A stretch of DNA of 33,256 bases from Sulfuricurvum sp. MLSB (GTDB lineage Bacteria > Campylobacterota > Campylobacteria > Campylobacterales > Sulfurimonadaceae): NCBI RefSeq assembly GCF_000747095.1, contig NZ_JQGL01000131.1, positions 1 to 33,256 on the forward strand, given 5' to 3'. This document shows, piece after piece, positions 17,476 to 33,131 of the stretch. Position 1 is the stretch's first letter, and each line of letters opens with the position of its first letter. Under the pieces are notes generated by a model, which was given only the letters and a program-made list of their open reading frames with translations, was not told the origin of the DNA and ran no database searches. The position numbers and the translations under genes are program-made.

Positions 17476-17511
17476 AAAAATAAATCTTTGCCTTATATAA
17501 AGGATCATGCC

Positions 17512-18909
17512 ATGGCCAGTTCAATCAGTTCGCTCGGTATCGGCTCAGGCGTATTGACTGCCGATGTACTTGAACAATTAAAAGCCGCTGATGAAGCCCG
17601 TCTTATTACGCCGATCGATAACAAACTTGATCTTCAAGACCAAAAAGAGACGGCATTTGACCTTCTGGATTCGCTTATCAGCTCCTTCAAAAGCAGTGTT
17701 TCGGCTTTGAGTTACGATTCGCTGTACGCAAAGCGCACCACCACCGTAACAGGAGGCAATCTCCAAGTCGTGGCGGAAGCCGGCGCCGCTGTCGAATCGT
17801 TCACTCTGCAAACCGTGCAGCTGGCTCAAAAAAATATTCAGGAATCCGGTTCTTTCCTCTCTGCGACCAGCACAGTCGCCGACGGTAGCGGTACCATGGG
17901 GGTCACCATTGACGGTACGACCTACAACGTCAATTATACGGCAGCGACCACACTGGAAGAATTGGCGACAGCGATCAATGATGCCGCCGGGACGCAGGTA
18001 ACGGCATCCGTTTTGCAAACGGGGGCAACGTCGTACAAGCTTATTCTCTCTTCCAAAAACACGGGGGCGGATCAAGCCATATCGATTTCGGATACGCCGA
18101 GCGTTCCCGGTTCCGGGCTTGTCGATGCAATCTACAACGACGCCACGGCAACGAGCGGTTTTACGTCTGTTTTGACTGCGCAAGACGCCATTCTCAAATA
18201 CAATGGCATTACCGTGACGCGCTCAACCAATGAAATTTCCGATGTTATCAACGGCGTAACGCTCAAACTCACAACGGCGGGTGAAACGGCCAATGTCGAC
18301 ATCAAACAAGACCAAGACGCGATTACCGCGGAAATGGAACTGTTTGTCGAATCGTACAATACGTTGATCACCAATTTGCGTGATATGACGATGTCTGACC
18401 AGGAGACAGGTTCTCAGGGCGTATTCAACGGAGACAGTTTCATTAAATCCATCAGTCGTGAGATCAACAGCATCATCATTTCGGTCAACAGCGACAACGA
18501 TTCGCTCATGAATTACGGTATCGATATTGATAAAAGCGGTACTATGACGTTCAACAGCACAACGTTCAAAGCGGCACTGACGGCTGATCCTACCGCTGTA
18601 AACCTTTTCATGGCGGGCGGTTACGACAGCGTCAGCGGCCAGACGAAAACAGGTCTCTTTTCAACCCTGAACGACAAGATCAACGAATATACCGGTTATA
18701 ACGGATTGCTTGACAATTATCAGTCGAACATGGATAAAAAAATGACGTCGCTAAATGAAGAGCGCGCGCGGATGCTGGCATCTCTCGAATCCAGATATGA
18801 TATTCTGACCAAGCGGTTTTCGGCTTACGATGCCGTTATCAGCAAAATCAACGCTCAATTTTCATCACTTAACATGATGATCCAAGCCGAGGTAAATTCT
18901 AAAGGCTAA
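17512..18909 (+). CDS. fliD: Flagellar filament cap protein FliD (HAP2)
   Basis: 465 residues from the ATG at 17512, which has AAGGA 7 bases upstream; an in-frame ATG at 17488 lacks support. The N-terminal SISSLGIGSGVLTADVLEQL and the coiled region around residues 30-60 match the FliD N-terminal domain. The C-terminal domain (about 220-460) includes FVESYNTLITNLRDMT, then SVNSDNDSLMNYGIDIDKSG and the terminal helix with KRFSAYDAVISKINAQFSSL. Middle residues are Thr/Ser/Ala-rich and variable, as in surface-exposed cap legs. FliD pentamers cap the growing filament and fold exported flagellin. FliS is not adjacent. A sigma-28-type promoter precedes it. Confidence 0.96.
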   Translation: MASSISSLGIGSGVLTADVLEQLKAADEARLITPIDNKLDLQDQKETAFDLLDSLISSFKSSVSALSYDSLYAKRTTTVTGGNLQVVAEAGAAVESFTLQTVQLAQKNIQESGSFLSATSTVADGSGTMGVTIDGTTYNVNYTAATTLEELATAINDAAGTQVTASVLQTGATSYKLILSSKNTGADQAISISDTPSVPGSGLVDAIYNDATATSGFTSVLTAQDAILKYNGITVTRSTNEISDVINGVTLKLTTAGETANVDIKQDQDAITAEMELFVESYNTLITNLRDMTMSDQETGSQGVFNGDSFIKSISREINSIIISVNSDNDSLMNYGIDIDKSGTMTFNSTTFKAALTADPTAVNLFMAGGYDSVSGQTKTGLFSTLNDKINEYTGYNGLLDNYQSNMDKKMTSLNEERARMLASLESRYDILTKRFSAYDAVISKINAQFSSLNMMIQAEVNSKG

Positions 18910-19044: not shown

Positions 19045-19611
19045 ATGCAGTTCAAACTCTTCATCAGTGAATACATCGATCATCTGCATAGAATATTATC
19101 CTCGCTGGACAAAAATGAGCTTGTCAAGCTCGAACAACTTCTCTGCACTCTGAGCGGCGAACAGCGCGTTTACATTATCGGAAACGGCGGAAGCGCCGCC
19201 ACGGCATCGCACATGGTCAACGATTTCGGTATCGGCCTGAAACGCCGCGGAAAACTGAACATATCCGCGATTGCCCTCGCCGATAACCTCGCTTCATGCA
19301 CCGCCATCGCAAACGATACCGGTTATGACAATATTTTTTATCTGCAACTAAAAAATGTCCTCAATCCTCAAGATGTTGTTATTGCGATTTCATGCAGCGG
19401 CACGTCGCCGAATATCATTAAAGCTGTCCGCTATGCCAAAGAGATCGGAGCAACCGTCGTCGGCTTCAGCGGTTTTGACGGCGGAGAATTAGCCCGACTG
19501 AGCGACATTGTTTTGCACGCGCAAACCAATCCGGGCGAATACGGTCTGGTCGAAGATGTCCACATGGTGATCAATCACATGCTATACTCATGGTTTGTAC
19601 AAAAGGATTGA
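19045..19611 (+). CDS. SIS-domain phosphosugar isomerase, GmhA-like
   Basis: 188 residues, the size of GmhA (sedoheptulose-7-phosphate isomerase). The phosphosugar-binding loop IGNGGSAATASHMVNDF is at 45-61 and SCSGTSPNIIKAV at 117-128. H56 and the C-terminal EDVHMVINHM (170-179) correspond to the metal/active-site positions of GmhA, with D60 in place of the usual Glu. Isomerisation of a ketose-7-phosphate to the aldose phosphate is the best inference; another phosphosugar is possible. It is the first gene of the glycan operon, and a fused kinase/nucleotidyltransferase of the heptose-activation type lies further down the same operon. Confidence 0.85.
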   Translation: MQFKLFISEYIDHLHRILSSLDKNELVKLEQLLCTLSGEQRVYIIGNGGSAATASHMVNDFGIGLKRRGKLNISAIALADNLASCTAIANDTGYDNIFYLQLKNVLNPQDVVIAISCSGTSPNIIKAVRYAKEIGATVVGFSGFDGGELARLSDIVLHAQTNPGEYGLVEDVHMVINHMLYSWFVQKD

Positions 19612-19615
19612 TACG

Positions 19616-21052
19616 GTGGATAATTACCAAAAAGATATTTATTGTTTTGATCCGATTACCGCTTTTGAAGAAGCAGAAAAAAGAAACCGGGTCGAAACAT
19701 CAAATCCGCATGTTGACGGTTTGCAAATCTGCTACTATGACGGCGAATCGATCCCGAATGCCCCTGAAAACTGCATCAACGTACCGGTCAATACTTTCTA
19801 CGAATATTTTCTGACGACCAAGAACCGTTTACCCGAACGGATACATTTCGGCATCAAAGAATATTCCGGTGATGTCAAAAACGAATTGGTATCCGCCATT
19901 CAACAAACACTCAAAGCCATCGATACAGAACGCAACGCTATGTCCGATGCGCTGATGAACAACGCCAGGAAACTGCAACCGGAATTTTCAGAGACACTGA
20001 AAATTTTTCTGATAGCGTCCCGTGAAACAACGGTCATGCAGTACATCAGCCAAAATATAGCGGACGCGTTTAGAGCACTCGGCCATCAGGTTTTTCTTTC
20101 CATTGAAGAAAACGACATGCAAAAGATAGATACGTTTATCCATTTGGCCCATTACATTCAATTTAACCCAAACGTCGTTATCAATATCAACCATTTCAAT
20201 AACAGTTTTCTGCACGACGACGTCTTTAATTTCGTCTGGTTTCAAGACTTTATGCCTGTGCTTCAAAATACCCGGCCCATCGTGCTTCGGAAGCGTGATA
20301 CCGTCTATTCCCTGCTTCCTGAAATAGACCTTTTGCTGGAAAAAAAGGGAATCCCTTTCAGTCGCCAGTCTTTTTGTGTCAACAAAGCCATCTTTAAAAC
20401 CGATGAGACACTCACGCGCGAGCAGAAAATTATTTTTATCGGCAGTTCGTACGCCCCTCGACTGGACGCGCAACACCACAATACGAAAATCGTCAAAGAC
20501 GCGATCGATGTCTTGGACCAAGGTAAAGAATTTACAGCGGACATTATCCAAAAATGGGCCAAAAAGTATAATCTGAGCCCCGAGTACATCCAGAATCACG
20601 TTATCGCGTACGTCGTGCGGGACATAACCGTGTTGTGGCTGCATAAGATTCATCAGCAGACCGGCCTGCCGGTCGAAATCTACGGATGGGGCTGGGAGCA
20701 ATACGACGTTCTCAAACCTTACTGTAAAGGTTCTCTCCCTTATGATCAAGTAGCCGCCGTTTACAACAGTGCCGCATACACCTTGGTACCGCACAGTATG
20801 TATGTCCTGCAACAACGAACGCTTGAAGCTGCCGCGTGCGGCTGTCAGCCCATTGTGTACGACTGCCGATACAATGATACTCCCCCGTTTTACGAAAATG
20901 CACTCGCGTATTTTCGAACCGTCAAAGACATCATAAAGATCATTAAACACGGTTCGCCAAACGATTTGACCGCTCTTGTCGATGACAACAGCTATGAACA
21001 TTTCGCAAAACGCATTGTCCAATCCGTTGAGGAGCAATTAAAACATGGGTGA
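19616..21052 (+). CDS. GT-B glycosyltransferase, CgeB/glycosyltransferase family 1-like
   Basis: 478 residues from a GTG at 19616, chosen because AAAGGA lies about 8 bases upstream; an in-frame TTG at 19595 would overlap the previous gene. The first about 130 residues are an unrecognised N-terminal region. From about 130 comes a GT-B-like fold: KIFLIASRETTVMQYISQNI opening the first Rossmann domain, FNFVWFQDFMPVL, then the second domain with IIFIGSSYAPR, EIYGWGWEQYDVLKP and the donor-site region QRTLEAAACGCQPIVYDC, where E and the following Gly/Cys are typical. It likely moves a nucleotide-activated sugar made by the operon. Acceptor (flagellin, LPS or a glycan) unknown. It overlaps the radical SAM gene by 8 bases. 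Confidence 0.8.
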   Translation: MDNYQKDIYCFDPITAFEEAEKRNRVETSNPHVDGLQICYYDGESIPNAPENCINVPVNTFYEYFLTTKNRLPERIHFGIKEYSGDVKNELVSAIQQTLKAIDTERNAMSDALMNNARKLQPEFSETLKIFLIASRETTVMQYISQNIADAFRALGHQVFLSIEENDMQKIDTFIHLAHYIQFNPNVVININHFNNSFLHDDVFNFVWFQDFMPVLQNTRPIVLRKRDTVYSLLPEIDLLLEKKGIPFSRQSFCVNKAIFKTDETLTREQKIIFIGSSYAPRLDAQHHNTKIVKDAIDVLDQGKEFTADIIQKWAKKYNLSPEYIQNHVIAYVVRDITVLWLHKIHQQTGLPVEIYGWGWEQYDVLKPYCKGSLPYDQVAAVYNSAAYTLVPHSMYVLQQRTLEAAACGCQPIVYDCRYNDTPPFYENALAYFRTVKDIIKIIKHGSPNDLTALVDDNSYEHFAKRIVQSVEEQLKHG

Positions 21053-22139
21053 TATTTACCGTATTGATTCACACAAGCTGATGTACCATCCCGAACGGGT
21101 GGCACAGTGGAGCAACGCCGGAAACGATTGGGAAAAACTGAAAAAAGTTTATCCCATCTACGTCGAAATCTCTCCGTACGGCGGGTGCAACCACCGTTGC
21201 ACGTTCTGCGCTCTGGATTACATGGGATACGAAAAGATAGGGCAGGAAGAAAAAGCGCTCAAAGCCGCTCTCGGCGAAATGGCCGAAGGGGGAGTGCGCA
21301 GCGTGATGTTCGCGGGTGAAGGAGAGCCGCTGCTCTTTACCCCGCTTGCGTCGGTGATCGAGCACTGTGCTTCTATCGGCATCGACACCTCCATCACCAC
21401 CAACTTCGTCCCCTGCAACACGAAGAGCATCGAAACGTTCGTCCGCCACTGCTCCTGGGTCAAAGTGAGCCTCAATGCCGGAACACCCGAAAGTTACGCC
21501 GCCATTCACCAGACCAAAGAAGACGATTTTCACCGAGTCATCGAGAATCTGCGCTACGCAGTCCGTCTCAAACGCGAGTACGGATACACCTGCACCCTCG
21601 GGGCGCAGATGCTGTTGCTGCCGGAAAACCGCGACAGCGCCGTGACGCTGGCGAAACTGTGTGCCGATATCGGGCTGGACTATCTGGTTATCAAACCCTA
21701 TTCCCAGCATCTCTTTAGCGAAACGCACGCCTACGAACAGATCAACTACGACGACTACATGGATTTGGAAGCGGAACTGGCCGCGTGCAATACGGCCTCT
21801 TTCAATGTGGTCTTCCGTGCCAACACGATGCGCAAATACACCGAAAAACAACACGGATACAAAAAATGCCTCTCGACCCCGTTTTTCTGGGGATACATCG
21901 CTTCCAACGGCGACGTTTACGGGTGCAGTGCCTATCTTGGACAAGAGAAATTTTGCTACGGAAACATCAACGAAACGGGATTCAAATCGATCTGGGAAGG
22001 GGAAAAGCGGCGGCAAAGCTACGAATACGTCCAAAACGAGCTCGATATCAACGGATGCCGGGTCAACTGCCGCATGGATGAAGTCAACCGCTATCTCTGG
22101 CGGCTTCAAAACCCCAATGCTCACGACAATTTTATTTAA
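21045..22139 (+). CDS. Radical SAM/SPASM enzyme 1
   Basis: 364 residues. The radical SAM cluster motif CNHRCTFC gives C48, C52 and C55; the Gly-rich AGEGEPLLF follows at about 89-97. A C-terminal SPASM-like set of Cys is present: KKC near 278, YGC near 296, KFC near 306, then NGC and VNC near the end. Such proteins bind an extra Fe-S cluster and often modify peptides or sugars (for example epimerisation, dehydrogenation or C-C chemistry). The substrate cannot be read from sequence; the sugar operon context suggests a nucleotide sugar or a glycan precursor. It is a paralogue of the enzyme at 25150, sharing the DYLVIK segment. GGAG precedes the start inside the glycosyltransferase gene. Confidence 0.88.
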   Translation: MGDIYRIDSHKLMYHPERVAQWSNAGNDWEKLKKVYPIYVEISPYGGCNHRCTFCALDYMGYEKIGQEEKALKAALGEMAEGGVRSVMFAGEGEPLLFTPLASVIEHCASIGIDTSITTNFVPCNTKSIETFVRHCSWVKVSLNAGTPESYAAIHQTKEDDFHRVIENLRYAVRLKREYGYTCTLGAQMLLLPENRDSAVTLAKLCADIGLDYLVIKPYSQHLFSETHAYEQINYDDYMDLEAELAACNTASFNVVFRANTMRKYTEKQHGYKKCLSTPFFWGYIASNGDVYGCSAYLGQEKFCYGNINETGFKSIWEGEKRRQSYEYVQNELDINGCRVNCRMDEVNRYLWRLQNPNAHDNFI

Positions 22140-22148
22140 AGGTATCAT

Positions 22149-23135
22149 GTGAAAGCAATCGTAACGGGCGGCGCCGGGTTCATCGGCTCGCATATGACGG
22201 ATCTGCTGATAAAAGAAGGGTTCAGCGTCACCGTCATCGACAATCTGGCGAACGGGCGGCTTGAGAACCTCTCTCATCATCAGGGAAACGGTAAAATCAC
22301 GTTTGTTCAGGCGGATATCGGCGATTACGGAACCGATCTTGACCCTTATTTTACCGATGTCGATTATGTCTTTCATTTTGCCGCACTTGCCGATATCGTC
22401 CCCTCGATCAACGATCCTCTGACCTATCACCGTGCCAACGTCGACGGAACGATCCGCGTTCTCGAAGCCGCCCGCAAAACATCCATCAAAAAATTCGTCT
22501 ACGCTGCTTCCTCTTCGTGTTACGGCATTCCCGATACCTATCCTACTCCCGAAACGGCCGCCATCGATCCGCAGTATCCGTACGCGTTGACCAAATACCT
22601 CGGGGAAGAATACGTCATGAACTGGGGGAAAATCTACAATCTGCCTGTCGTCTCGATGCGTTTCTTCAACGTCTACGGTCCGCGCCACCGCACGGGCGGA
22701 ACCTACGGAGCGGTATTCGGCGTTTTTCTGGCCCAGCTGCTGGCCGGAAAGCCGCTCACCGTAGTCGGAGATGGCGAACAGACCCGCGATTTTACCTTTG
22801 TAACCGATGTCGCGGCGGCGTGTTATGCCGCCGCTCGCTCCGATATTGTTCAGGAGATTCTAAATGTCGGCAGTGACAACACCTATTCGGTGAACCGTCT
22901 CGTCGAACTGCTCGGTGCGGAAAAAATCCACATTCCCAAACGGCCGGGTGAGCCGGACTGCACCTATGCGGATATTTCCAAAATCAAACGGCTACTGGGG
23001 TGGAAACCGAAAGTCTCATTCGAAGAAGGGGTGAAAATTATGCTGGAGAACATCGAACTGTGGCGCGAAGCTCCCGTATGGGACGAAGCAAGCATTCAAG
23101 AAGCGACCAAAGACTGGTTCAAATATCTGGGATGA
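22149..23135 (+). CDS. NAD-dependent sugar epimerase/dehydratase (GalE-like SDR)
   Basis: 328 residues from a GTG at 22149 with AAAGG 6 bases upstream. Extended SDR: TGGAGFIG at 6-13, D31 after the second strand for NAD ribose, SSS at 121-123 and the catalytic YxxxK at Y145/K149. The segment RFFNVYGPRHRTGGTYGAVF is typical of UDP-hexose 4-epimerases and related enzymes. It probably epimerises a nucleotide-linked sugar; the base and sugar are not determinable. It overlaps the transketolase subunit gene by the 4-base ATGA. Confidence 0.92.
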   Translation: MKAIVTGGAGFIGSHMTDLLIKEGFSVTVIDNLANGRLENLSHHQGNGKITFVQADIGDYGTDLDPYFTDVDYVFHFAALADIVPSINDPLTYHRANVDGTIRVLEAARKTSIKKFVYAASSSCYGIPDTYPTPETAAIDPQYPYALTKYLGEEYVMNWGKIYNLPVVSMRFFNVYGPRHRTGGTYGAVFGVFLAQLLAGKPLTVVGDGEQTRDFTFVTDVAAACYAAARSDIVQEILNVGSDNTYSVNRLVELLGAEKIHIPKRPGEPDCTYADISKIKRLLGWKPKVSFEEGVKIMLENIELWREAPVWDEASIQEATKDWFKYLG

Positions 23136-23941
23136 GCATGCCGAACCTGAACGCCGAACACATCCGCAAGCACACCATCGCCCTTTCGTGCAAAAGCAAG
23201 GCGGGGCATTTGGCGCCGTCTCTTTCGTGCGTCGAAGTTTTGAGCGTACTCTTTCGGGATTTTCTGACATACGATGCGACCGATCCCCGCAGCGAATCGC
23301 GCGATCGCCTGATCTTCAGCAAAGGTCACGGCGCGTATGCGTATTATGTGATCTTGAACCGGCTCGGATTTCTGCCGGATTATGAACTGGAACACTTTTA
23401 CGCCGAAGGCGCCTCCATCAAAGGATGCCTGACCCGAAATCCCGATTACATGATCGAAGCCTCAACCGGTTCATTGGGACACGGCCTTCCGATTGCCGTC
23501 GGAATCGCAAAGGCCCTCAAACTTCGGGGAATGAATAACAAAGTCGTCTGCATCGTCGGAGACGGAGAGATGCAGGAGGGAAGCAACTTCGAGGCGTTGG
23601 GGCTGGCGTATCGGATGAAACTCGATAATCTTCTGATCATTATCGATGCCAACGGGCTGCAGGCCATGAACCGGGTTGAGGACGTCGGTCTGGATAATCC
23701 GCGATTATCCAAAGTGCTCTCTTCCTATACAGACTTTTTTCACGATCTCGACGGACACGATGAAGCGGCTTTACATGAAGCTTTTTCGCCTTTTTTCTCC
23801 GGGCAATCGCGCGGTATGTTCTCGGTCGTCTTTGCCAATACGATCAAAGGCAAGGGAATCGGCTTCATCGAAAACTCCGTCAATCACCATTTCCGATGCC
23901 CTACGGAAGACGGATACGTTTTGGAGGCCGACGATGAATAA
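23132..23941 (+). CDS. Transketolase, N-terminal (TPP-binding) subunit
   Basis: 269 residues from the ATG at 23132, in the ATGA overlap with the epimerase stop; a second ATG at 23138 is possible. The TPP/Mg motif is GDGEMQEGSNFEA at 143-155, with IFSKGHGAYA at 61-70 and GSLGHGLPIAVG at 113-124. This is the PP domain of split transketolases. Family chemistry: transfer of a two-carbon ketol unit between sugar phosphates. Its position between an epimerase and a GmhA-like isomerase suggests it builds or trims a sugar chain for the operon product rather than serving central metabolism. Confidence 0.93.
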   Translation: MSMPNLNAEHIRKHTIALSCKSKAGHLAPSLSCVEVLSVLFRDFLTYDATDPRSESRDRLIFSKGHGAYAYYVILNRLGFLPDYELEHFYAEGASIKGCLTRNPDYMIEASTGSLGHGLPIAVGIAKALKLRGMNNKVVCIVGDGEMQEGSNFEALGLAYRMKLDNLLIIIDANGLQAMNRVEDVGLDNPRLSKVLSSYTDFFHDLDGHDEAALHEAFSPFFSGQSRGMFSVVFANTIKGKGIGFIENSVNHHFRCPTEDGYVLEADDE

Positions 23942-24422
23942 TCTTGCAACCAAAAAAGAAGTAATGGCGGAGCTTTACCGTTATTTTCGCCAAGATGAAC
24001 GCATGGTTTTGCTGGCCGGCGATATGGGCTTTGCCGTACTGGACGACTTCTTGCAGAACCATCCCGAGCGCGCCTTCAATGTCGGTATCTGCGAGCAGGC
24101 GACCATCAGTATGGCGATGGGGCTCCACCTTGCCGGGTTAAAGCCTATCGTGTATTCTCAGGTCCCGTTTCTGGTGATGCGCGCCTACGAACAGATCCGT
24201 TATGACCTCAACGAACACAACGCCGACGTCAAACTGGTCGGTGTCGGAGCGGATAACTATTTTGAAAAGCTGGGCAGGAGCCACTGCATGGACAGCGACG
24301 ATCTGGCAATGATGGGAATTTTCAAAAACGTTTTAATTCTGGAGCCTTCAAAAACGACCCTCGAGGCCGATATTGCCAGAATGCTATCCTATGAGGGACC
24401 GGTGTATGTGAGATGCCAGTGA
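23934..24422 (+). CDS. Transketolase, C-terminal subunit reduced to the pyrimidine-binding domain
   Basis: 162 residues from the ATG at 23934, with GGAGG 6 bases upstream and an 8-base overlap with the TPP subunit. It has the Pyr-domain catalytic Glu in GICEQATISMAMGLHLAG (E54), the RAYEQIRYDL segment and SHCMDSDDLAMMG, as in transketolase and DXS. It ends at GPVYVRCQ, the boundary where normal C-terminal subunits continue for about another 140 residues with the transketolase C-terminal domain. That domain is absent, and the next gene does not encode it in any frame I inspected. The active site is made of the PP and Pyr domains, so activity is still plausible. Confidence 0.9.
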   Translation: MNNLATKKEVMAELYRYFRQDERMVLLAGDMGFAVLDDFLQNHPERAFNVGICEQATISMAMGLHLAGLKPIVYSQVPFLVMRAYEQIRYDLNEHNADVKLVGVGADNYFEKLGRSHCMDSDDLAMMGIFKNVLILEPSKTTLEADIARMLSYEGPVYVRCQ

Positions 24423-25144
24423 ACGATTCTTTAGAGCTTTATGCCCAAAACCTTGCAAAGGTTCAGCTACCGCCGTCTCAACACAACCAGCCATGCACAG
24501 AAACGTCCGTACGCATCTGCGCATCCCGTGAAGCCATCCGGCTGACCCTGTGCGTAGATACCCAAACACATACGCTCACAGAAGCATTCTGCACATTCGA
24601 TGCGTCAGTAGGACACGATGACGCAGCTCTGGCACACACCCTGTGCCAACTGCTCAAAGGGCTGCCGCTGATCGAAGCGCAAAGCCATGCCGTATTAAAA
24701 CTGGAAGAGCGTATGCGAGATGCATGGAACCGCCGTCCGGTTGCCGGGATCGTGCAAACGGCCAATATGGCCCCTATTTTTTCGACGCTGCAACGGTTGA
24801 TCGACGATGCAGCCAAAGAGTACCGCCGCCAAACCGGTTACAACGGGCAGGTCAGCACTTTTTTCGAATCCGCTCCGGGTTCGTGGAGTTCTCAGAGCGT
24901 TGAGCAAAAACACGCATCGATCCTGCAGGAAATCGAACCGTTTCTAAAGACACAAGGCATCGCCGTCCTGCCGGACGTCGTCTTCATCAGCGATTCGCGC
25001 ATCGAAGTCGACCTGCCCGGCGTAGCCCTGCAAAAATTGCCGGAGTTATTAATGGCGCTTGAACACCATCTATTCAAAGTGTTCGGCTTTCCGATCGAAG
25101 TGATGTATCACAATATGCAAGACCGCAACAAGAAACGGATATAG
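24413..25144 (+). CDS. Unrecognised 243-residue protein of the glycan operon
   Basis: I do not recognise the family. No signal peptide or membrane helix. The segment from about residue 33 (VRICASREAIRLTLCVDT, then HTLCQLLKGLPLIEAQ) and the end (QEIEPFLKTQGIAVLPD, then SRIEVDLPGVALQKLPELLM) have a faint pattern resemblance to the IscU-like and Nfu-like domains of NifU scaffolds, but the cluster-binding cysteines of those families are not conserved. This is weak evidence. The start overlaps the transketolase subunit by 10 bases and the stop is 5 bases from the second radical SAM gene, so it is firmly part of the operon and may assist one of those enzymes. Confidence 0.8.
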   Translation: MPVNDSLELYAQNLAKVQLPPSQHNQPCTETSVRICASREAIRLTLCVDTQTHTLTEAFCTFDASVGHDDAALAHTLCQLLKGLPLIEAQSHAVLKLEERMRDAWNRRPVAGIVQTANMAPIFSTLQRLIDDAAKEYRRQTGYNGQVSTFFESAPGSWSSQSVEQKHASILQEIEPFLKTQGIAVLPDVVFISDSRIEVDLPGVALQKLPELLMALEHHLFKVFGFPIEVMYHNMQDRNKKRI

Positions 25145-25149
25145 GTACC

Positions 25150-26259
25150 ATGGAAGAAGAAAAACTGATACTCGACGCCACAAAAATCGCATGGCATAAA
25201 GAACGGATCGAAGCGTGGGAACGCGGAGAGAGAATCGCACCGATTACCATCGATATGGCACTGACCCGGGCGTGCAACTACGGATGCAGCTTTTGCTATG
25301 CCCGACTTCAGGAAAACGACCGTTTCGATATCACCCGCGAAGTGATCGACGCTTTTTTGGAAGATTGTGCCGAGATGGGAGTCAAAGCGATTAGCCTTGT
25401 CTCGGATGGGGAGAGTTCGATATCGCCCCATTTCGAACATACGATCATCCGCGGTTCACAGCTGGGGATATCAATGGCAACCGCGACGCACGGCTACAAT
25501 TCGACCAAAGAAAGCCTGGAACGCATCCTGCCCCATCTCACCTACCTGCGCGTCAACATTTCCGCCGGTGAACCCGCGCGCTACGCCCAGATCATGGGGG
25601 TCAAAGAAGAGTGGTTTCATCAGGTATGCCAAAACATCCGCGACATGGTGGAAATCAAAAAACGCGATAACCTCGATGTTACTATCGGCATGCAAATGGT
25701 TTTGATGCCGCAGGATGCCGATCAGGTGATCCCGTTGGCGAAACTGGGCAAGGAATTGCGCCCGGACTATCTGGTTATCAAACACACCAGCGACAGCGAA
25801 GACGGACAGCTTGGAGTCGATTATTCCAAATACGCCGAACTCGACGATCTTTTGCACGAAGCGGAATCCTATTCTGATGAAGAATACCAGGTTTCGGTCA
25901 AATGGTCGAAAATCAGCTCCGAAGGCAAACGGAGCTATCAGCGCTGTTACGGCCCGCCGTTTCAGATCCAGATTTCCGGCTCGGGACTGGTTGCCCCCTG
26001 CGGAATGCTTTTTAACGAGCGATATAAAAAGTTTCATATCGGCAATATCGTCACCACCCGCTTCAAAGAAATCGTTCAAAGCGATCGTTATTGGGATGTC
26101 ATGAACTATCTGGCTTCGCCGAATTTCAATGCCCAGAAGATGTGCGGATCGCTGTGTTTGCAGCACAAGCCCAATGAGTTTCTGGATGCCTACAAAAAAG
26201 GGCAGATCGATCTAAGCGCGCCCAAAGGCAATCCGCCGCAACATATCAACTTTATCTAG
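25150..26259 (+). CDS. Radical SAM/SPASM enzyme 2
   Basis: 369 residues. ACNYGCSFCYA gives C42, C46 and C49 for the radical SAM cluster; SDGESSISPHF occupies the glycine-rich position. C-terminal Cys for an auxiliary cluster: QRC near 276, APC near 293, KMC and SLC near 340-345. It shares several aligned stretches with the enzyme at 21045 (for example AGEPARYAQI against AGTPESYAAI, and DYLVIK), so the two probably arose by duplication. AGG lies 5 bases before the ATG. It is followed 14 bases later by a methyltransferase gene. Function unknown; a radical modification of a sugar intermediate is the contextual guess. Confidence 0.88.
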   Translation: MEEEKLILDATKIAWHKERIEAWERGERIAPITIDMALTRACNYGCSFCYARLQENDRFDITREVIDAFLEDCAEMGVKAISLVSDGESSISPHFEHTIIRGSQLGISMATATHGYNSTKESLERILPHLTYLRVNISAGEPARYAQIMGVKEEWFHQVCQNIRDMVEIKKRDNLDVTIGMQMVLMPQDADQVIPLAKLGKELRPDYLVIKHTSDSEDGQLGVDYSKYAELDDLLHEAESYSDEEYQVSVKWSKISSEGKRSYQRCYGPPFQIQISGSGLVAPCGMLFNERYKKFHIGNIVTTRFKEIVQSDRYWDVMNYLASPNFNAQKMCGSLCLQHKPNEFLDAYKKGQIDLSAPKGNPPQHINFI

Positions 26260-26273
26260 GCAAAGGTCAACAC

Positions 26274-27044
26274 GTGTGCCCAATATGTTTTACAGAATCC
26301 GGCAGCTACTCGGTCATCGTCGATACGGTTTACAGCGTCTACAAATGCAGCGGTTGCGGTCTGGAATACACCGTACCGAATCCGAGCGATCAGGTTTTGC
26401 AGGCTTTTTACGGCAACTATCATGATGTACGTGCGGATGCGACCATCGTGCAGCGTAATGCTCGTAGAAATCTGAAAAAACTCGAAGATCTCGGAATCGC
26501 TCCGGACGCCGTCATTCTTGACTTTGGCTGCGGCAAAGGGGAATTTGTGGATATCGCAGGGGAGCGCTGCTTTGGCATTGAGCTCAATCCGGACAACACC
26601 AATTCCAGAATAAAAACATCGTTTGATGCGCTGCCGTACCGTTCGTTTGATGCGATCACGCTGTGGGGGGTGCTGGAACATCTCAACGCCATTGTGCCCA
26701 CACTGAAGACTCTCCGCTCTCACCTTGACACAGACGGATTGATGGCCATAACAACCGTCAATGCAGAAGGGGTGATCCCGTACTATCATAAACCGCCGGA
26801 GCATCTGACCTACTGGACACGACAAAGTTTTGAAAAGTTGGCCGCAACCCTCGACATGGACATCGTCCTTTATGAACCGTATCAGATGGAACAATATGCT
26901 GCGATCTATCTTGACCGGCTTTTAAGCCGGACGCCCATATCCTACCGTGACGGTATTCTGACCCATTCTTTGCGTGTTCTGCCCGAAATCGTCGAAGTCC
27001 CCACCAACGAGATTTTCGTTGTCATGAAACCTAAAGGATCCTAA
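26274..27044 (+). CDS. SAM-dependent methyltransferase with N-terminal zinc ribbon
   Basis: 256 residues from a GTG at 26274 with AAAGG 8 bases upstream. A zinc ribbon is formed by C2, C5, C25 and C28 (CPIC, CSGC). The class I methyltransferase SAM-binding motif is ILDFGCGKGEF at 81-91, and LWGVLEHL is the typical post-motif helix start. This architecture occurs in sugar C- and O-methyltransferases of deoxysugar and glycan pathways. No conserved C-methyltransferase-specific C-terminal domain was recognised, so C- versus O-methylation is open. ATG of the next gene directly follows its stop. Confidence 0.87.
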   Translation: MCPICFTESGSYSVIVDTVYSVYKCSGCGLEYTVPNPSDQVLQAFYGNYHDVRADATIVQRNARRNLKKLEDLGIAPDAVILDFGCGKGEFVDIAGERCFGIELNPDNTNSRIKTSFDALPYRSFDAITLWGVLEHLNAIVPTLKTLRSHLDTDGLMAITTVNAEGVIPYYHKPPEHLTYWTRQSFEKLAATLDMDIVLYEPYQMEQYAAIYLDRLLSRTPISYRDGILTHSLRVLPEIVEVPTNEIFVVMKPKGS

Positions 27045-28523
27045 ATGATCGAAAATGACTTTGTCACGGAAAATGTCAACGAGATCAGACGACTGGCGCA
27101 CAACGCAAAAATTGTTTTTATCAACGGTAACTTCAATATTCTCCATCCCGGGCACCTCCGGTTGCTCAAATTTGCAAAATCCAACGGCGCATTTTTAGTC
27201 GTCGGAATCAATGATTTTTCTCCCGACAGCGAACTGCTCGATGCCAAAATCCGGCTCGAAGCGATTCAGCATTCAATGTATGTGGATTACGCATTGATTT
27301 TAAAAGAAGAGCCGTGGGCCTTCATCAAAGCGCTCAAGCCAAACATTATCGTCAAAGGAAGCGAGCACAAACAGCATCATAACCCTGAACAGGCATTGGT
27401 GAAAGCGTACGGAGGAAAATTGGTATTCAGCTCCGGGGATATCGGGTTTTCCTCATTGCAACTTCTCGAAAGCGAATTTCAGCGTAACCACTTCGGCATG
27501 ATTGAAAAACCCCAAAACTATCTGAAACGGCACGGCATCAATACCGCCAAACTGACAAAACTCATTACGAAGTTTCAAGAATTAAACGTATTGGTCATCG
27601 GCGATACGATTGTGGACGAATACATCACTTGCGACCCTCTGGGGATGAGTCAGGAAGACCCGACGATCGTCGTGACGCCGATCTCTTCGGATAAATTCAT
27701 CGGGGGGGCGGCCATCGTCGCCTCTCACGCTGCCGGGCTGGGGGCAAAAGTCCGGTTTTATTCGGTCTTGGGCGAAGACGATTACCGTCATTTTGTTCAG
27801 GAAAAGCTCCATGATTACGGCGTCGAATGCCATCTGGTCCAAGATACAAGCCGTCCTACAACACTCAAACAGCGTTTCCGCGCCCACAACAAAACATTGC
27901 TGCGGGTTAACCACCTCAAACAGCATCACATCGATATCGATCTTCAAAACAAAATTTTCAAAGACATTGAGCAAAAGATCGCCGAAACCGATCTTATCGT
28001 TTTTTCGGATTTCAGCTATGGCTGTTTGCCGCCGCATCTGATAGACAAAATCACCACATTGGGACGTCAGCACGGAGTCATGATGGTTGCCGACAGCCAG
28101 TCCTCATCACAGATAGGGGATATTTCGAAATTCCGTCACATGAAACTCGTCACCCCTACCGAAAAAGAGGTCCGTCTCGCCTTGAACGATTTTGAATCGG
28201 GATTGATCATCCTGGCCGAAAAGCTGCGCAAACAAAGCGACATCGCCAATGTTCTCATCACGCTTGGGTCCGAAGGGGTCCTTATCCACGCCGACAAAAA
28301 CAAAAAATGGATCACCGATCAGATCCCCGCGCTGAACCGCGCGCCCAAAGACGTCGCAGGGGCAGGCGACTCGCTGCTCATATCGGCATCCATGTCCATA
28401 GCCGTCGGAGCCAGTGTCATGGAAGGAGCCTATATCGGCTCAATCGCCGCAGCCTGTCAGGTCGGCCGCGTCGGAAATATTCCGCTCAATATCCATGAAC
28501 TCGAACGGGAGATCATGGCATGA
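27045..28523 (+). CDS. Bifunctional nucleotidyltransferase (N) / PfkB sugar kinase (C), inverted HldE-like fusion
   Basis: 492 residues. Residues 1-150 are a cytidylyltransferase-like domain: INGNFNILHPGHLRLLKF with HPGH at 34-37, and IIVKGSEHKQ at 101-110. Residues 180-490 are a PfkB/ribokinase domain: VIGDTIVDEYI at 184-194, FIGGAAIVASHAAGLGA at 218-234 and the catalytic GAGD (D442 as base). HldE, which makes ADP-heptose, has the kinase first and the nucleotidyltransferase second; here the order is reversed. The likely job is to phosphorylate a heptose-7-phosphate-like sugar at C1 and activate it with a nucleotide. The bisphosphate phosphatase GmhB needed between those steps is not in the window. 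The stop overlaps the next gene by 4 bases. Confidence 0.88.
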   Translation: MIENDFVTENVNEIRRLAHNAKIVFINGNFNILHPGHLRLLKFAKSNGAFLVVGINDFSPDSELLDAKIRLEAIQHSMYVDYALILKEEPWAFIKALKPNIIVKGSEHKQHHNPEQALVKAYGGKLVFSSGDIGFSSLQLLESEFQRNHFGMIEKPQNYLKRHGINTAKLTKLITKFQELNVLVIGDTIVDEYITCDPLGMSQEDPTIVVTPISSDKFIGGAAIVASHAAGLGAKVRFYSVLGEDDYRHFVQEKLHDYGVECHLVQDTSRPTTLKQRFRAHNKTLLRVNHLKQHHIDIDLQNKIFKDIEQKIAETDLIVFSDFSYGCLPPHLIDKITTLGRQHGVMMVADSQSSSQIGDISKFRHMKLVTPTEKEVRLALNDFESGLIILAEKLRKQSDIANVLITLGSEGVLIHADKNKKWITDQIPALNRAPKDVAGAGDSLLISASMSIAVGASVMEGAYIGSIAAACQVGRVGNIPLNIHELEREIMA

Positions 28524-29224
28524 TTGCCCTTTTATTAAGCGCCGGTCTCGGAACCCGTTTGCGTCCGGTGACGGATCATCTGCCCAAATGCCTGGTCCCG
28601 ATCAACGGAAAGCCGTTGATGGATTACTGGTTTGAAAACCTCAGCGCAGCGGGGGTTACCCGATTTATCGTCAACACCCACTACATGGCGGAAAAGGTGG
28701 AGCGGCATATCGGTCTCAGCCCATGGAAAAACAACGTCACACTGCTGCATGAGCCCGAGCTATTGCTGACCGGCGGCACCATTCTGGCGTGCAAACCCTT
28801 TCTGAACAACGAAGCGTTTATGGTGGTCCATGCCGACAATCTCAGTTTTTGCGACTTCTCCGCTTTTATCGATGCACATCGTACGCGCCCAGAACACTGC
28901 GAAATGACGATGATGACGTTCGCGACCGACACTCCCCAAAGCTGCGGCATTGTAGCGCTGGATGAGCGAGGCGTCGTCACGGAGTTTCATGAAAAAATCG
29001 CTCATCCCCCCGGAAACCTTGCCAACGCGGCGGTCTACATCCTGGAGCCTTCCATCCTCGCTTTTATTGAGAGCCTGCACAAAGAAAAAGTCGATTTCAG
29101 CACCGAAGTGCTGCCCCGTTTTATCAACAGGATTTATACTTTCCACAACGACGGTTATCACCGGGATATCGGTACATTGGAAAGCTACGCCTTGGCACAA
29201 GTGGAATTAAAAAATTTTATTTAG
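28520..29224 (+). CDS. Sugar-phosphate nucleotidyltransferase, HddC/RmlA-like
   Basis: 234 residues of the NTP_transferase family. The nucleotide-binding signature AGLGTRLRPVTDHLPKCLVP is at 8-27, VVHADNLSF is the metal-binding Asp region near 97-105, and HRDIGTLESY is near the C-terminus, typical of mannose/heptose-1-phosphate enzymes. It may make a GDP-, CDP- or dTDP-activated sugar. Short size fits the catalytic domain alone. ATGA overlap with the fused kinase gene indicates coupling, and a 68-base AT-rich gap follows. Confidence 0.88.
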   Translation: MIALLLSAGLGTRLRPVTDHLPKCLVPINGKPLMDYWFENLSAAGVTRFIVNTHYMAEKVERHIGLSPWKNNVTLLHEPELLLTGGTILACKPFLNNEAFMVVHADNLSFCDFSAFIDAHRTRPEHCEMTMMTFATDTPQSCGIVALDERGVVTEFHEKIAHPPGNLANAAVYILEPSILAFIESLHKEKVDFSTEVLPRFINRIYTFHNDGYHRDIGTLESYALAQVELKNFI

Positions 29225-29292: not shown

Positions 29293-30363
29293 ATGATTAG
29301 GTATGGAATTATGAAAAAAACCAATAACATCCTAGTATCTTATTCGGCTACGATCAAAGAGGCGTTGAAAATCATCGACAGCGGTGCAATGCAAATCGCT
29401 CTCGTTATCGACGATGATGACTGCTTATTGGGGACGCTCACCGACGGTGATATTCGCAGGGGACTGCTCAACGGCCTCTCAGTCGATAGCAGTATTGAAA
29501 CGATTTTTTTCAAAACTCCTACCGTAGCAAAAATATCCGATTCAAACGAGAAGATTTTTCGGATACTTCTCTCCAAAAAACTGCGCCAAATCCCGATCGT
29601 AGACGAATCCGGCCGGCCGGCCGGCATCATCGATATCGAAGAACTGATCAAGCCGAAACACAAAACGAACAAAGTCGTCCTCATGGCCGGCGGGCTGGGG
29701 ACACGGTTGGGCGAATTGACCAAAACGACCCCAAAACCGATGCTTCGGGTCGGAAACAAGCCGATTCTCCAAACCATCATCGAGAATTTTGCCAAATACG
29801 GTTATACCGATTTCATCATCAGCGTGAACTATCTCTCGCACGTCATCGAAGATTATTTCGGGGACGGCAGCTCCTTCGGCGTATCGATCGAATATATCCA
29901 TGAAAAAGAGCGCATGGGGACTGCCGGAGCACTCAGCCTCATGCGGTCCATGCTGAACGAGCCGTTTTTTGTAATGAACAGCGATTTGCTGACCAATATC
30001 AATTTCGAACATCTGCACGATTTCCATTTGGCACAGGGAGCGATCGCTACGATGGGCGTGCGCGAGTATGATTTTCAGGTCCCCTACGGCGTCGTGAATG
30101 TCGAAGACGGAAAAATCAGAAACATTGTCGAAAAGCCCGTGCACACGTTTTTTGTAAGCGCCGGGATTTACATGCTCTCACCCGAAGCCCTGGAATATCT
30201 GCCGGACAACCAGTTTTTTGATATGCCTTCGTTGTTCAACAATCTATCTGAAGCCGATTGCATGACGGGCGCTTTCCCCATCCATGAGTATTGGCTGGAC
30301 ATCGGACGTCTGAGCGATTTCGAACGGGCCAATACTGAGTTTTCGCAGGTGTTCAGTGTATAA
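29293..30363 (+). CDS. ptmE: CBS-domain nucleotidyltransferase, PtmE-like
   Basis: 356 residues from 29293. Two CBS motifs at about 15-120 are followed by the NTP_transferase domain with LMAGGLGTRLGELTKTTPKP at 130-149, and the C-terminal YWLDIGRLSDFERAN. This architecture is that of Campylobacter PtmE, which converts glucosamine-1-phosphate and GTP to GDP-glucosamine, the first committed step of legionaminic acid synthesis. Start is uncertain: the ATG at 29293 has AAGGA only 2 bases away, while the ATG at 29311 would begin MKKTNNILVSYSATIKEAL, as expected for the family, with a weaker ribosome site. It overlaps the cytidylyltransferase gene by 8 bases. Confidence 0.88.
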   Translation: MIRYGIMKKTNNILVSYSATIKEALKIIDSGAMQIALVIDDDDCLLGTLTDGDIRRGLLNGLSVDSSIETIFFKTPTVAKISDSNEKIFRILLSKKLRQIPIVDESGRPAGIIDIEELIKPKHKTNKVVLMAGGLGTRLGELTKTTPKPMLRVGNKPILQTIIENFAKYGYTDFIISVNYLSHVIEDYFGDGSSFGVSIEYIHEKERMGTAGALSLMRSMLNEPFFVMNSDLLTNINFEHLHDFHLAQGAIATMGVREYDFQVPYGVVNVEDGKIRNIVEKPVHTFFVSAGIYMLSPEALEYLPDNQFFDMPSLFNNLSEADCMTGAFPIHEYWLDIGRLSDFERANTEFSQVFSV

Positions 30364-31060
30364 AGGGGCCACATTTGCAGCCATTATTCCTGCCCGCGGC
30401 GGGAGCAAAAGGCTGCCGCGCAAAAATATCCTCGATCTTGAAGGAAAACCTTTGATTTCCTGGACGATCGAAGCGGCTCTGAAAAGCCGATACATCGATG
30501 AGGTAGTCGTCACCAGCGATGATGATGACATCATCCGTATTGCGCAGGAAGCAGGAGCGAAAACGCTCAAGCGTCCGGACGAGCTGGCGCGTGATGATAC
30601 CTCTACGGTCGATACGGTTCAACATGCCCTGAATCTGATGAAACGGTTCGATTACGTCGTACTGCTCCAGCCGACCAGTCCGCTGCGCACGGATAAACAT
30701 ATTGATGAAGCGATAGAGCTTTGCATCGCCAAAGAAGCCGATGCCGTGATTTCCGTATGCGAAACGGAACATAATCCTCTGTGGAGCAACGTGTTGCCCA
30801 AAGACGGCGATATGAGCTGTTTTTTGCGCGAAGAGGTAAAAAACAAACGCTCTCAGGAATTGCCGGAGCAGTATCGGCTTAACGGCGCTCTCTATATCTG
30901 CCGGACGGAAAAATTGTCGGATCAGCGCACGTTCTTTTTGAATAAAAACACGTATGCGTACATCATGGACCGAAAATCGTCTGTAGACATTGATGAAGCA
31001 TTCGACTTTCTTCTCGCAAAAACGCTTCTTTCCTGCGCAAACGATCAAAAGCCGCAATAG
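30356..31060 (+). CDS. CMP-nonulosonate synthetase (acylneuraminate cytidylyltransferase; PtmB/LegF type)
   Basis: 234 residues from a GTG at 30356 (MYKGATFAAIIPARGGSK); an AGG lies about 8 bases upstream. The CTP-binding signature ARGGSKRLPRKNI lies at 13-25, followed by EVVVTSDDDDII; LLQPTSPLRT is near 105-114, all typical of NeuA/LegF enzymes rather than PseF. It activates a nine-carbon keto sugar acid with CTP. Pairing with PtmE points to legionaminic acid. The synthase (NeuB-like) and other steps are not in the window. Confidence 0.9.
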   Translation: MYKGATFAAIIPARGGSKRLPRKNILDLEGKPLISWTIEAALKSRYIDEVVVTSDDDDIIRIAQEAGAKTLKRPDELARDDTSTVDTVQHALNLMKRFDYVVLLQPTSPLRTDKHIDEAIELCIAKEADAVISVCETEHNPLWSNVLPKDGDMSCFLREEVKNKRSQELPEQYRLNGALYICRTEKLSDQRTFFLNKNTYAYIMDRKSSVDIDEAFDFLLAKTLLSCANDQKPQ

Positions 31061-31115: not shown

Positions 31116-33131
31116 GTGGAGCGTATACAGCAACAGGCTATTCAAACATTTCAAACCAATTTGGATTTTTTCAAACAAAAACACAAACACGTATATGACA
31201 AAATTTTCATTCTTCAAGAAGCCATCGAGCGGGGAAGTTATCCGGAAAATTACGCACTGGAATACCGTGAGGGCTATTTTGACGTCAAAGAACTCTCAAG
31301 CGGCCGTTTTTTATACAACCAATCCAGCCTTCAGCATGCGCAAACATCTGCTCAGCACGTCACGCTAAGCAAAACCGAATCGGTTATCGAAACATTTTAC
31401 AATTTTGAATTCTCCGAAAAAGCCGTTGCCAAAGCAGCCGAAACAGACCCGACCATGAGTTCATACGCCACAACCGCACCGGTGATCGGTTACGTACATC
31501 AGGTGGCCTCAAAAGACAAACCTCTGTTGCAGATATACAAATACATCTTTCTCGGCGCGGGTCTGGGGATACATATGGCGGAGATTCATAAAAAAATCAA
31601 AAGCCATATGTACCTTATCGTCGAAAACAATCTCGAAATCTTCCGGCTTTCTTTGTTTGTAACCGATTACTCGTCTGCTTTCGGCAAAGCGGACCTGGAC
31701 TTCAGCATCGCCGACAGTACGGCAGACTTTCGCGAACGATTCAACCATTTTTTTCATATCGGGTTTCTGTACAACAACTATTTGAAGTTTTCCCTCTTCT
31801 CCGAGGCATACGGCTATCTTATCCCCCAGCTTCAAAGTTTTATCGCCTCGCAATCGCATTTGACCTACTCGCATCATCGATTACTCGAAAAAAATGCGCG
31901 GGTGCTCAACACACTGGAAGAAGGGTACCGCTTTTTAAACCTCTCGGAACATCATCACAACACTCTGTTTTCAGGTAAACCGGTGTTGTTGGTAGCAGCC
32001 GGCCCTTCTTTGGATAAAAACATGGCGTGGCTCAAAAGCCATTACGACCAATTCATCATCGTATGCGTACTGAATGCCGTCAAAACACTCGAAAAACATG
32101 CCATTCATCCCCATATCGTCGTTCACGGCGACGAATCCGAATTTCATTTGATCCAAACATTTGCACGTATGGAAAACCCCGATTTTTTAAAAGACGCGTT
32201 GTTTATCCTGACGCCAAGCATCCCCATGCATGTTTTCACGCAGTACTACAAAAAAGAGCAAATCTTTTTGTTTGAGGAACGCACCCGCTATAAAAAAAGC
32301 TTCGGCTTTTTGGAAGGGTTCAGCGTCGGTGAATTGAGCTATGCACTTTGCCTTATCTTTGATGCGCAAAAAGTACATCTTCTCGGGCTGGATCTTGCGC
32401 TTGACCCCGAAACAGGCCGGACGCATGCGGGCGATCACCACAACGATACGACGCTGGAAGGACAAAAGGCGATCAACGACCAGAATGTGCTGGACCTTTT
32501 CGCTTCGACGCTGCCGGTCAAAGGCAATTTCCTGGATACCGTGTTAACAACGCCCCTGTTTGAAATGTCCATCCACCGTATGGAATATTTTACGCGCGTG
32601 TACAAATCGGAAAACCAACACGTATACAACCTGAATAACGGGGCGTATTTTTACGGCACGATACCGACGGAAGCTTCTAAAGTCGACAATTATCCCGCAC
32701 TCGACCAAACCCTGATCTACACGCAAATAAAAAGTTTTTTTGACGAAATTTCCTCCTCAACCCTTACGATTGAAGAAAGCAAACAGTTCGATACCCGGAT
32801 ACAACACGCCGAAAAGATGTTTACTATCATTATGAGCTTTTCAGAGAGCAATGTTTCCTCCATCCAGCTCTTTTTCGAAGAGTACAGCAAAACAGTCAGT
32901 CAGCTTGTCCAATCAGCAGGAGAATTTGAACTCTCGCAAATCTTTGCGGTATATCTGGAATATATCTCAGGATACGTCGGAGAGTTTATCAACAGCAAAA
33001 ACATTGACAATCCGAAACGGCATACGAAGAAACTTCAAAAAATCCTCGTTGCTCAACTGCTCAAACTGCATCAGCACTATCAAACATCGATCATCAATGC
33101 CCGATCGAAAACGTCAACATCGAATGTATAA
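31116..33131 (+). CDS. maf: Motility accessory factor (Maf/DUF115), flagellin nonulosonate transferase
   Basis: 671 residues from a GTG at 31116 with AAGGA 7 bases upstream. The N-terminal region (about 20-250) matches the Maf flanking domain, with VENNLEIFRLSLF near 168. The central DUF115 domain carries PVLLVAAGPSLDKN at 289-302 and HPHIVVHGDE at 331-340, followed by HLLGLDLAL and the HAGD stretch. The C-terminal about 200 residues are helical. Maf proteins attach pseudaminic or legionaminic acid to Ser/Thr of flagellin before export. Neighbours fit: a CMP-nonulosonate synthetase upstream and a flagellin gene downstream on the opposite strand. Confidence 0.95.
   Translation: MERIQQQAIQTFQTNLDFFKQKHKHVYDKIFILQEAIERGSYPENYALEYREGYFDVKELSSGRFLYNQSSLQHAQTSAQHVTLSKTESVIETFYNFEFSEKAVAKAAETDPTMSSYATTAPVIGYVHQVASKDKPLLQIYKYIFLGAGLGIHMAEIHKKIKSHMYLIVENNLEIFRLSLFVTDYSSAFGKADLDFSIADSTADFRERFNHFFHIGFLYNNYLKFSLFSEAYGYLIPQLQSFIASQSHLTYSHHRLLEKNARVLNTLEEGYRFLNLSEHHHNTLFSGKPVLLVAAGPSLDKNMAWLKSHYDQFIIVCVLNAVKTLEKHAIHPHIVVHGDESEFHLIQTFARMENPDFLKDALFILTPSIPMHVFTQYYKKEQIFLFEERTRYKKSFGFLEGFSVGELSYALCLIFDAQKVHLLGLDLALDPETGRTHAGDHHNDTTLEGQKAINDQNVLDLFASTLPVKGNFLDTVLTTPLFEMSIHRMEYFTRVYKSENQHVYNLNNGAYFYGTIPTEASKVDNYPALDQTLIYTQIKSFFDEISSSTLTIEESKQFDTRIQHAEKMFTIIMSFSESNVSSIQLFFEEYSKTVSQLVQSAGEFELSQIFAVYLEYISGYVGEFINSKNIDNPKRHTKKLQKILVAQLLKLHQHYQTSIINARSKTSTSNV

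Follow-up and report, generated by a model that had tools for sequence, protein, structure and literature searches.

The stretch of Sulfuricurvum sp. MLSB DNA analysed here (contig NZ_JQGL01000131.1; all 33,256 nucleotides are referred to as the window) raises the question of what a protein does that combines the two domain families of HldE (RfaE) in the opposite order, in a genome that also encodes a kinase-first HldE (contig C96). This protein, which we call J, is encoded on the forward strand (27045..28523) by an uninterrupted reading frame of 492 amino acids, starting with an ATG at 27045 and with a stop codon ending at 28523. It is a reversed bifunctional protein with a nucleotidyltransferase (residues 26-146) followed by a PfkB kinase (residues 181-490). 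Pfam places CTP_transf_like at residues 26-110 (E 1.2e-11) and PfkB at residues 181-479 (E 1.5e-24), which bears out the domain order proposed in the first-pass annotation, and the HPGH and GAGD motifs indeed lie at residues 34-37 and 439-442. The N-terminal CTP_transf_like domain spans 27117..27482 (residues ~25-146) and the C-terminal PfkB/HldA-like kinase domain 27585..28514, both on the forward strand. The structure of J was predicted with AlphaFold2 from 48 homologues (mean pLDDT 88, pTM 0.70), and the closest PDB structure found by Foldseek is the kinase HldA from B. cenocepacia (E ~1e-27, 26% identity).

J and HldE have the GAGD and HxGH motifs in common, but the kinase comes first in E. 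coli HldE, in the HldE of Sulfuricurvum sp. MLSB and in 18 HldEs from Campylobacterales. The reversed order is therefore not the normal one for ADP-heptose synthases of this phylum, as the canonical HldEs read in Campylobacterales are kinase-first and the organism itself has one. Moreover, J stays below the NCBIfam equivalog cut-offs, i.e. 212.6 vs 345 for TIGR02198, its top NCBIfam match, 71.8 vs 181.5 for TIGR02199 and 191.7 vs 521 for NF008454, and in trees calculated for each domain separately it lies in a clade apart from HldE, HldA and HldC in both cases. In the kinase tree, which was left unrooted because the outgroups rbsK and pfkB had extreme branch lengths, all reversed proteins are split from all normal-order ones at 100/100. 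The nucleotidyltransferase tree consists of three clades, namely J (100/99), two further groups of reversed proteins termed rev2 and rev3 that here fall together, and HldE/HldC; long branches were flagged between rev2 and rev3. The trees and the differently fixed residues described below support, in both domains, the earlier suggestion of a lineage distinct from HldE, and the trees and the intact HldE in the genome rule out that J arose by rearrangement of the local HldE. A single origin of the reversed architecture would fit the unrooted trees, as would either order being the older one, and so would both a fresh fusion event and an exchange of the two halves. Among characterised relatives, the split kinase/adenylyltransferase pair HldA and HldC from Burkholderia and Neisseria provides the solved structure nearest to J (HldA) and the solved nucleotidyltransferase nearest by sequence (HldC), but J is fused, reversed and outside the HldA/HldC clades. 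Besides J, a kinase scoring over the cut-off is present in 8 of the 12 J genomes examined; in the remaining 4, several of which are drafts, J is the sole RfaE-like kinase detected.

The idea that J is a singular fusion did not hold. A search of GTDB genomes with an alignment of nine members yielded 296 relatives, and the best 80 of these are all full-length reversed fusions with 47-67% identity. According to their record titles, these 80 come from Campylobacterota, Pseudomonadota, Nitrospirota, Acidobacteriota, Chlorobiota, Actinomycetota, Verrucomicrobiota, Bacteroidota, Cyanobacteriota, Thermodesulfobacteriota and others, many of the records being MAGs, some of whose titles are possibly misassigned. 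The reversed protein is found in 12 of 299 Campylobacterales genomes (52-81% identity), and the other Campylobacterales matches listed cover the kinase part only, at ~30% identity. J is rare per genome: among 399 Pseudomonadota genomes there were two strong matches, including the search centre itself. When a protein of the same domain order with ~32% identity (L172) was used as query, 32 of 299 Pseudomonadota genomes had matches that were full-length and collinear; three of these belong to known groups or are closely related to them, and one (G394) is a J. The full-length relatives and this survey, with reversed fusions in at least three clades, rule out a unique fusion.

The reversed proteins read from this survey form the two clades rev2 and rev3 (L114 8932-10467, L115 8923-10452 and L172-L184), which together occur in ~10% of the Pseudomonadota genomes sampled; two of them are annotated as PfkB family carbohydrate kinase. 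They have the domain order of J, and their kinase groups with that of J at 100/100 against HldE, but they are only ~30% identical to J. SIS and transketolase-type genes lie nearby in L114 and L115. Plasmid matches that seemed reversed in the table (L116, L118-L122) are in fact kinase-first, the halves having been joined from two pieces. A phage origin of J was also rejected: no place in the phage collection covers 80% of J, and the scan of viral_contigs gave two short nucleotidyltransferase matches only. Our literature search, which covered open-licence papers, found neither a publication on this reversed architecture nor biochemistry. We tentatively conclude that the family of reversed nucleotidyltransferase-kinase proteins for sugar activation to which J belongs is old and has spread horizontally.

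If J already contains a nucleotidyltransferase, why is it paired with a second one? At 28520 the full-length reversed fusion is directly followed by K (28520..29224, forward strand), an NTP_transferase resembling RmlA, HddC and mannose-1-phosphate guanylyltransferases, whose gene overlaps that of J by 4 bp. The pairing noted in the first-pass annotation is real and tight. K is present in 78 of 80 J loci (median identity 56%), almost always as the immediate downstream neighbour; in most loci its start lies no more than 30 bases from the J stop codon, the 4-base overlap being the most frequent arrangement. Among the 299 Campylobacterales genomes, those with strong K matches (>368 bits) are precisely the 12 that contain J, and in one of these both genes are present twice. 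Among the Pseudomonadota sampled, a single genome (G466) has K without a strong J match. Such an obligate partner is a further difference from HldE, and within 1.5 kb of rev2/rev3 no K was detected in the loci examined. Across 28 sequences of K, the residues at typical catalytic positions do not vary. Its best scores are to mannose-1-phosphate guanylyltransferase and related sugar-1-phosphate nucleotidyltransferases, all under the respective NCBIfam cut-offs. K shares the NTP_transferase fold with HddC of the HddA-GmhB-HddC pathway to GDP-D-glycero-alpha-D-manno-heptose, and the likeness extends to the SIS isomerase in some J loci and to two loci in which K is fused to or lies beside GmhB. In L059 (2547-3776), K and a GmhB-type heptose bisphosphate phosphatase form one fusion protein of 409 aa (TIGR00213 174 bits, cut-off 149.6); the gene order in L075 is J, K, GmhB, GmhA-like SIS. 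However, K is far under the cut-off of the HddC profile (NF049965, 71.1 bits vs 300), and the J kinase is of the PfkB type, whereas HddA is of the GHMP type. A second fusion suspected in L169 turned out to be a 392-aa frame around K in whose translation no GmhB domain was seen by eye, so that L059 provides the only instance found.

The active sites of J, whose motifs both look intact according to the first-pass annotation, are so for the kinase and only in part for the nucleotidyltransferase. In the GAGD motif of the kinase both glycines and the aspartate are present in 81 of 81 sequences and the alanine in 80. In the nucleotidyltransferase, HxGH is kept in all 80 sequences covering the motif, but the aspartate of GxFD (GNFN in this J) is replaced by Asn (76), Glu (3) or Val (1), and L2, the loop that follows the second strand and normally bears the catalytic lysine of the family, is shorter by about six residues. 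The aligned KG position of L2 is gapped in 80 of 81 J sequences, while all 27 normal-order proteins have KG there. Since 44 of the 81 J sequences have a lysine at some point of the shortened loop, and 14 have a KG elsewhere in it, J has not uniformly lost lysine from the loop but lacks it at a conserved position. All rev2 and rev3 proteins read retain both FD and KG. In HldC, the lysine of this loop is Lys69 (PMC7993394), and in the Plasmodium CCT the mutant of the equivalent lysine, K663A, is practically inactive (PMC6060094). In J, HxGH, Lys104-Gly105, Arg70 and Arg39 are invariant or nearly so, which argues for a working nucleotidyltransferase site, and the invariant Arg39 is a candidate substitute for the L2 lysine.

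The kinase, too, departs from HldE/HldA: 31 positions are fixed in both groups, GAGD among them, and 16 are fixed differently, including Asn to Ile in GGAxN, Lys to Gln in DPKG, Lys to Tyr in SDYxKG and Asn to Thr in NxxE. Several of the differences fall in motifs through which PfkB kinases contact the sugar or the phosphate. The 16 differences may indicate that the substrate is not heptose 7-phosphate.

J and K close a tightly packed run of genes (19045 to 29224, gaps of -17 to +14 bases) that opens with a GmhA-like SIS isomerase (19045..19611; TIGR00441 102 bits, below the cut-off of 209); all genes listed here lie on the forward strand. The run includes an NAD-dependent epimerase/dehydratase that recurs in J-K loci (22149..23135), a ThDP-binding Transketolase_N subunit (23132..23941), a stand-alone Transket_pyr subunit without Transketolase_C (23934..24422) and a radical SAM/SPASM protein (25150..26259) whose gene is frequently the one just before J in loci from Campylobacterota. 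Downstream of K follow a CBS + NTP_transferase protein of PtmE-like architecture (29293..30363), a CMP-nonulosonate synthetase-like protein (30356..31060; TIGR03584 PseF 166 bits, cut-off 206) and a Maf family flagellin glycosyltransferase (31116..33131; MptE-like and Maf_flag10_N). From their family membership, these three neighbours suggest that the J-K product would decorate flagellin or a related surface glycan in this organism. ThDP-dependent enzymes of three kinds, i.e. split transketolase, E1-like and acetolactate-synthase-like, are found in 44 of 54 J loci of at least 15 kb and, with the same profiles, in none of 19 canonical HldE loci, the latter all stemming from one order and the J loci spanning phyla. 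The HldE loci contain a SIS gene in 17 cases and a weak K match in one; near J, a SIS gene is present in 29 and GmhB in 5 of 80 loci.

Several further features of these clusters were observed. The split transketolase (23132-24422) is minimal, consisting of Transketolase_N and a 162-aa Transket_pyr, and this short form occurs in 19 of 80 J-K loci. The radical SAM proteins at 21045-22139 and 25150-26259, the second with SPASM, have counterparts of ~60-83% identity in many Campylobacterota J-K loci. A 243-aa protein (24413-25144) has no Pfam or NCBIfam match, and weakly similar proteins (24-29%) occupy the same place in 5 other loci. The methyltransferase directly upstream of J (26274-27044) has no similar gene in 80 other J loci (tblastn, 1e-6). 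An open reading frame close to the glycan cluster (17488-18909) resembles, by eye, the flagellar cap protein FliD. Elsewhere, two families without Pfam match recur in J-K clusters, exemplified by L111 12121-13392 (~414 aa, 14 loci) and L102 3312-3833 (~173 aa, 13 loci).

Based on these findings we speculate, at not quite even confidence, that J and K make an activated sugar, likeliest a heptose or a heptose-like chain-extended one, for a surface or flagellin glycan, with K carrying out nucleotidyl transfer and the nucleotidyltransferase of J being remodelled. Transketolase-type enzymes and the GmhA-like SIS isomerase would provide a sugar phosphate, which the kinase domain of J would phosphorylate at the anomeric carbon. 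A GmhB-type phosphatase would then take off the other phosphate; its gene lies close by in a few loci and is part of a K fusion in one, and elsewhere the core enzyme presumably takes this role. Finally, K would couple the sugar-1-phosphate to a nucleotide, and the nucleotidyltransferase of J may either have left the main transfer to K or catalyse a different, slower or regulatory reaction. The domain order, the intact reading frame, the clade and its spread, the coupling to K, the residue changes and the gene context are observed; we infer every one of these reactions, the participation of J and K in one pathway, the heptose-like sugar and the take-over of transfer by K. In favour of this reading are the occurrence of the family in many phyla, the tight coupling of K and its invariant catalytic positions, the loss of the L2 lysine position and the GxFD aspartate in J with the retention of both in the K-less rev2/rev3, the inactivity of the Plasmodium CCT lysine mutant, the K-GmhB fusion, the gene order in L075, the conserved GAGD and a kinase fold nearest to HldA, and the ThDP enzymes in J loci but not in canonical HldE loci. 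It is weakened by the scarcity of GmhB and SIS genes in the loci, the 16 kinase differences, the (near-)invariant residues of the J nucleotidyltransferase site and the lysine found in 44 and the KG found in 14 of the 81 loops. A more radical version, which we regard as doubtful, is that the nucleotidyltransferase half of J is altered or silent, serving as NTP- or product-binding or docking domain, that transfer is performed by the partner of another fold from the overlapping next gene and that the pair is part of a conserved ThDP-dependent pathway whose product is a long-chain or branched sugar not yet described.

The alternative that survives best, although we consider it unlikely, is that the nucleotidyltransferases of J and K are each active but differ in the sugar or the position on which they act, with J alone making one NDP-sugar by kinase and then transfer reactions and K activating a second sugar of the same glycan. 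The conservation of HxGH and Lys104-Gly105 in all or nearly all J proteins, the invariant catalytic positions of K and the wealth of sugar-modifying enzymes in the clusters would agree with this, but the changed lysine loop of J speaks against it, and the strict one-to-one coupling of J and K in genomes and the 4-bp overlap fit a single pathway better. Less probable still is a non-heptose substrate, i.e. J phosphorylating another polyol, acid or ketose from the ThDP enzymes and the pair making a CDP-, GDP- or UDP-activated unit. Such a route would account for the fixed kinase differences, several of them in motifs that generally contact sugar or phosphate, for the three types of ThDP enzyme nearby and for the absence of SIS and GmhB from most loci, and it is opposed by the K-GmhB fusion and the J-K-GmhB-GmhA-like order, found in one locus each. 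That J is simply an HldE-type enzyme is highly improbable despite a kinase fold nearest to HldA and TIGR02198 as top match, given scores far under the equivalog cut-offs, the separate clades, the altered nucleotidyltransferase motifs, the HldE already in the genome and the other kinase over the cut-off in 8 of the 12 J genomes.

Our preferred reading, a joint J-K pathway, bears on annotation beyond this organism. Relatives are labelled PfkB kinase or look RfaE/HldE-like in family searches, by which ADP-heptose synthesis would be predicted where it is possibly absent. Regarded as a separate unit, the J-K pair may instead serve as marker for an uncharacterised sugar-nucleotide pathway across many phyla, and it would offer a clean way to test if one half of an enzyme's function can be outsourced to a neighbouring protein with a different fold.
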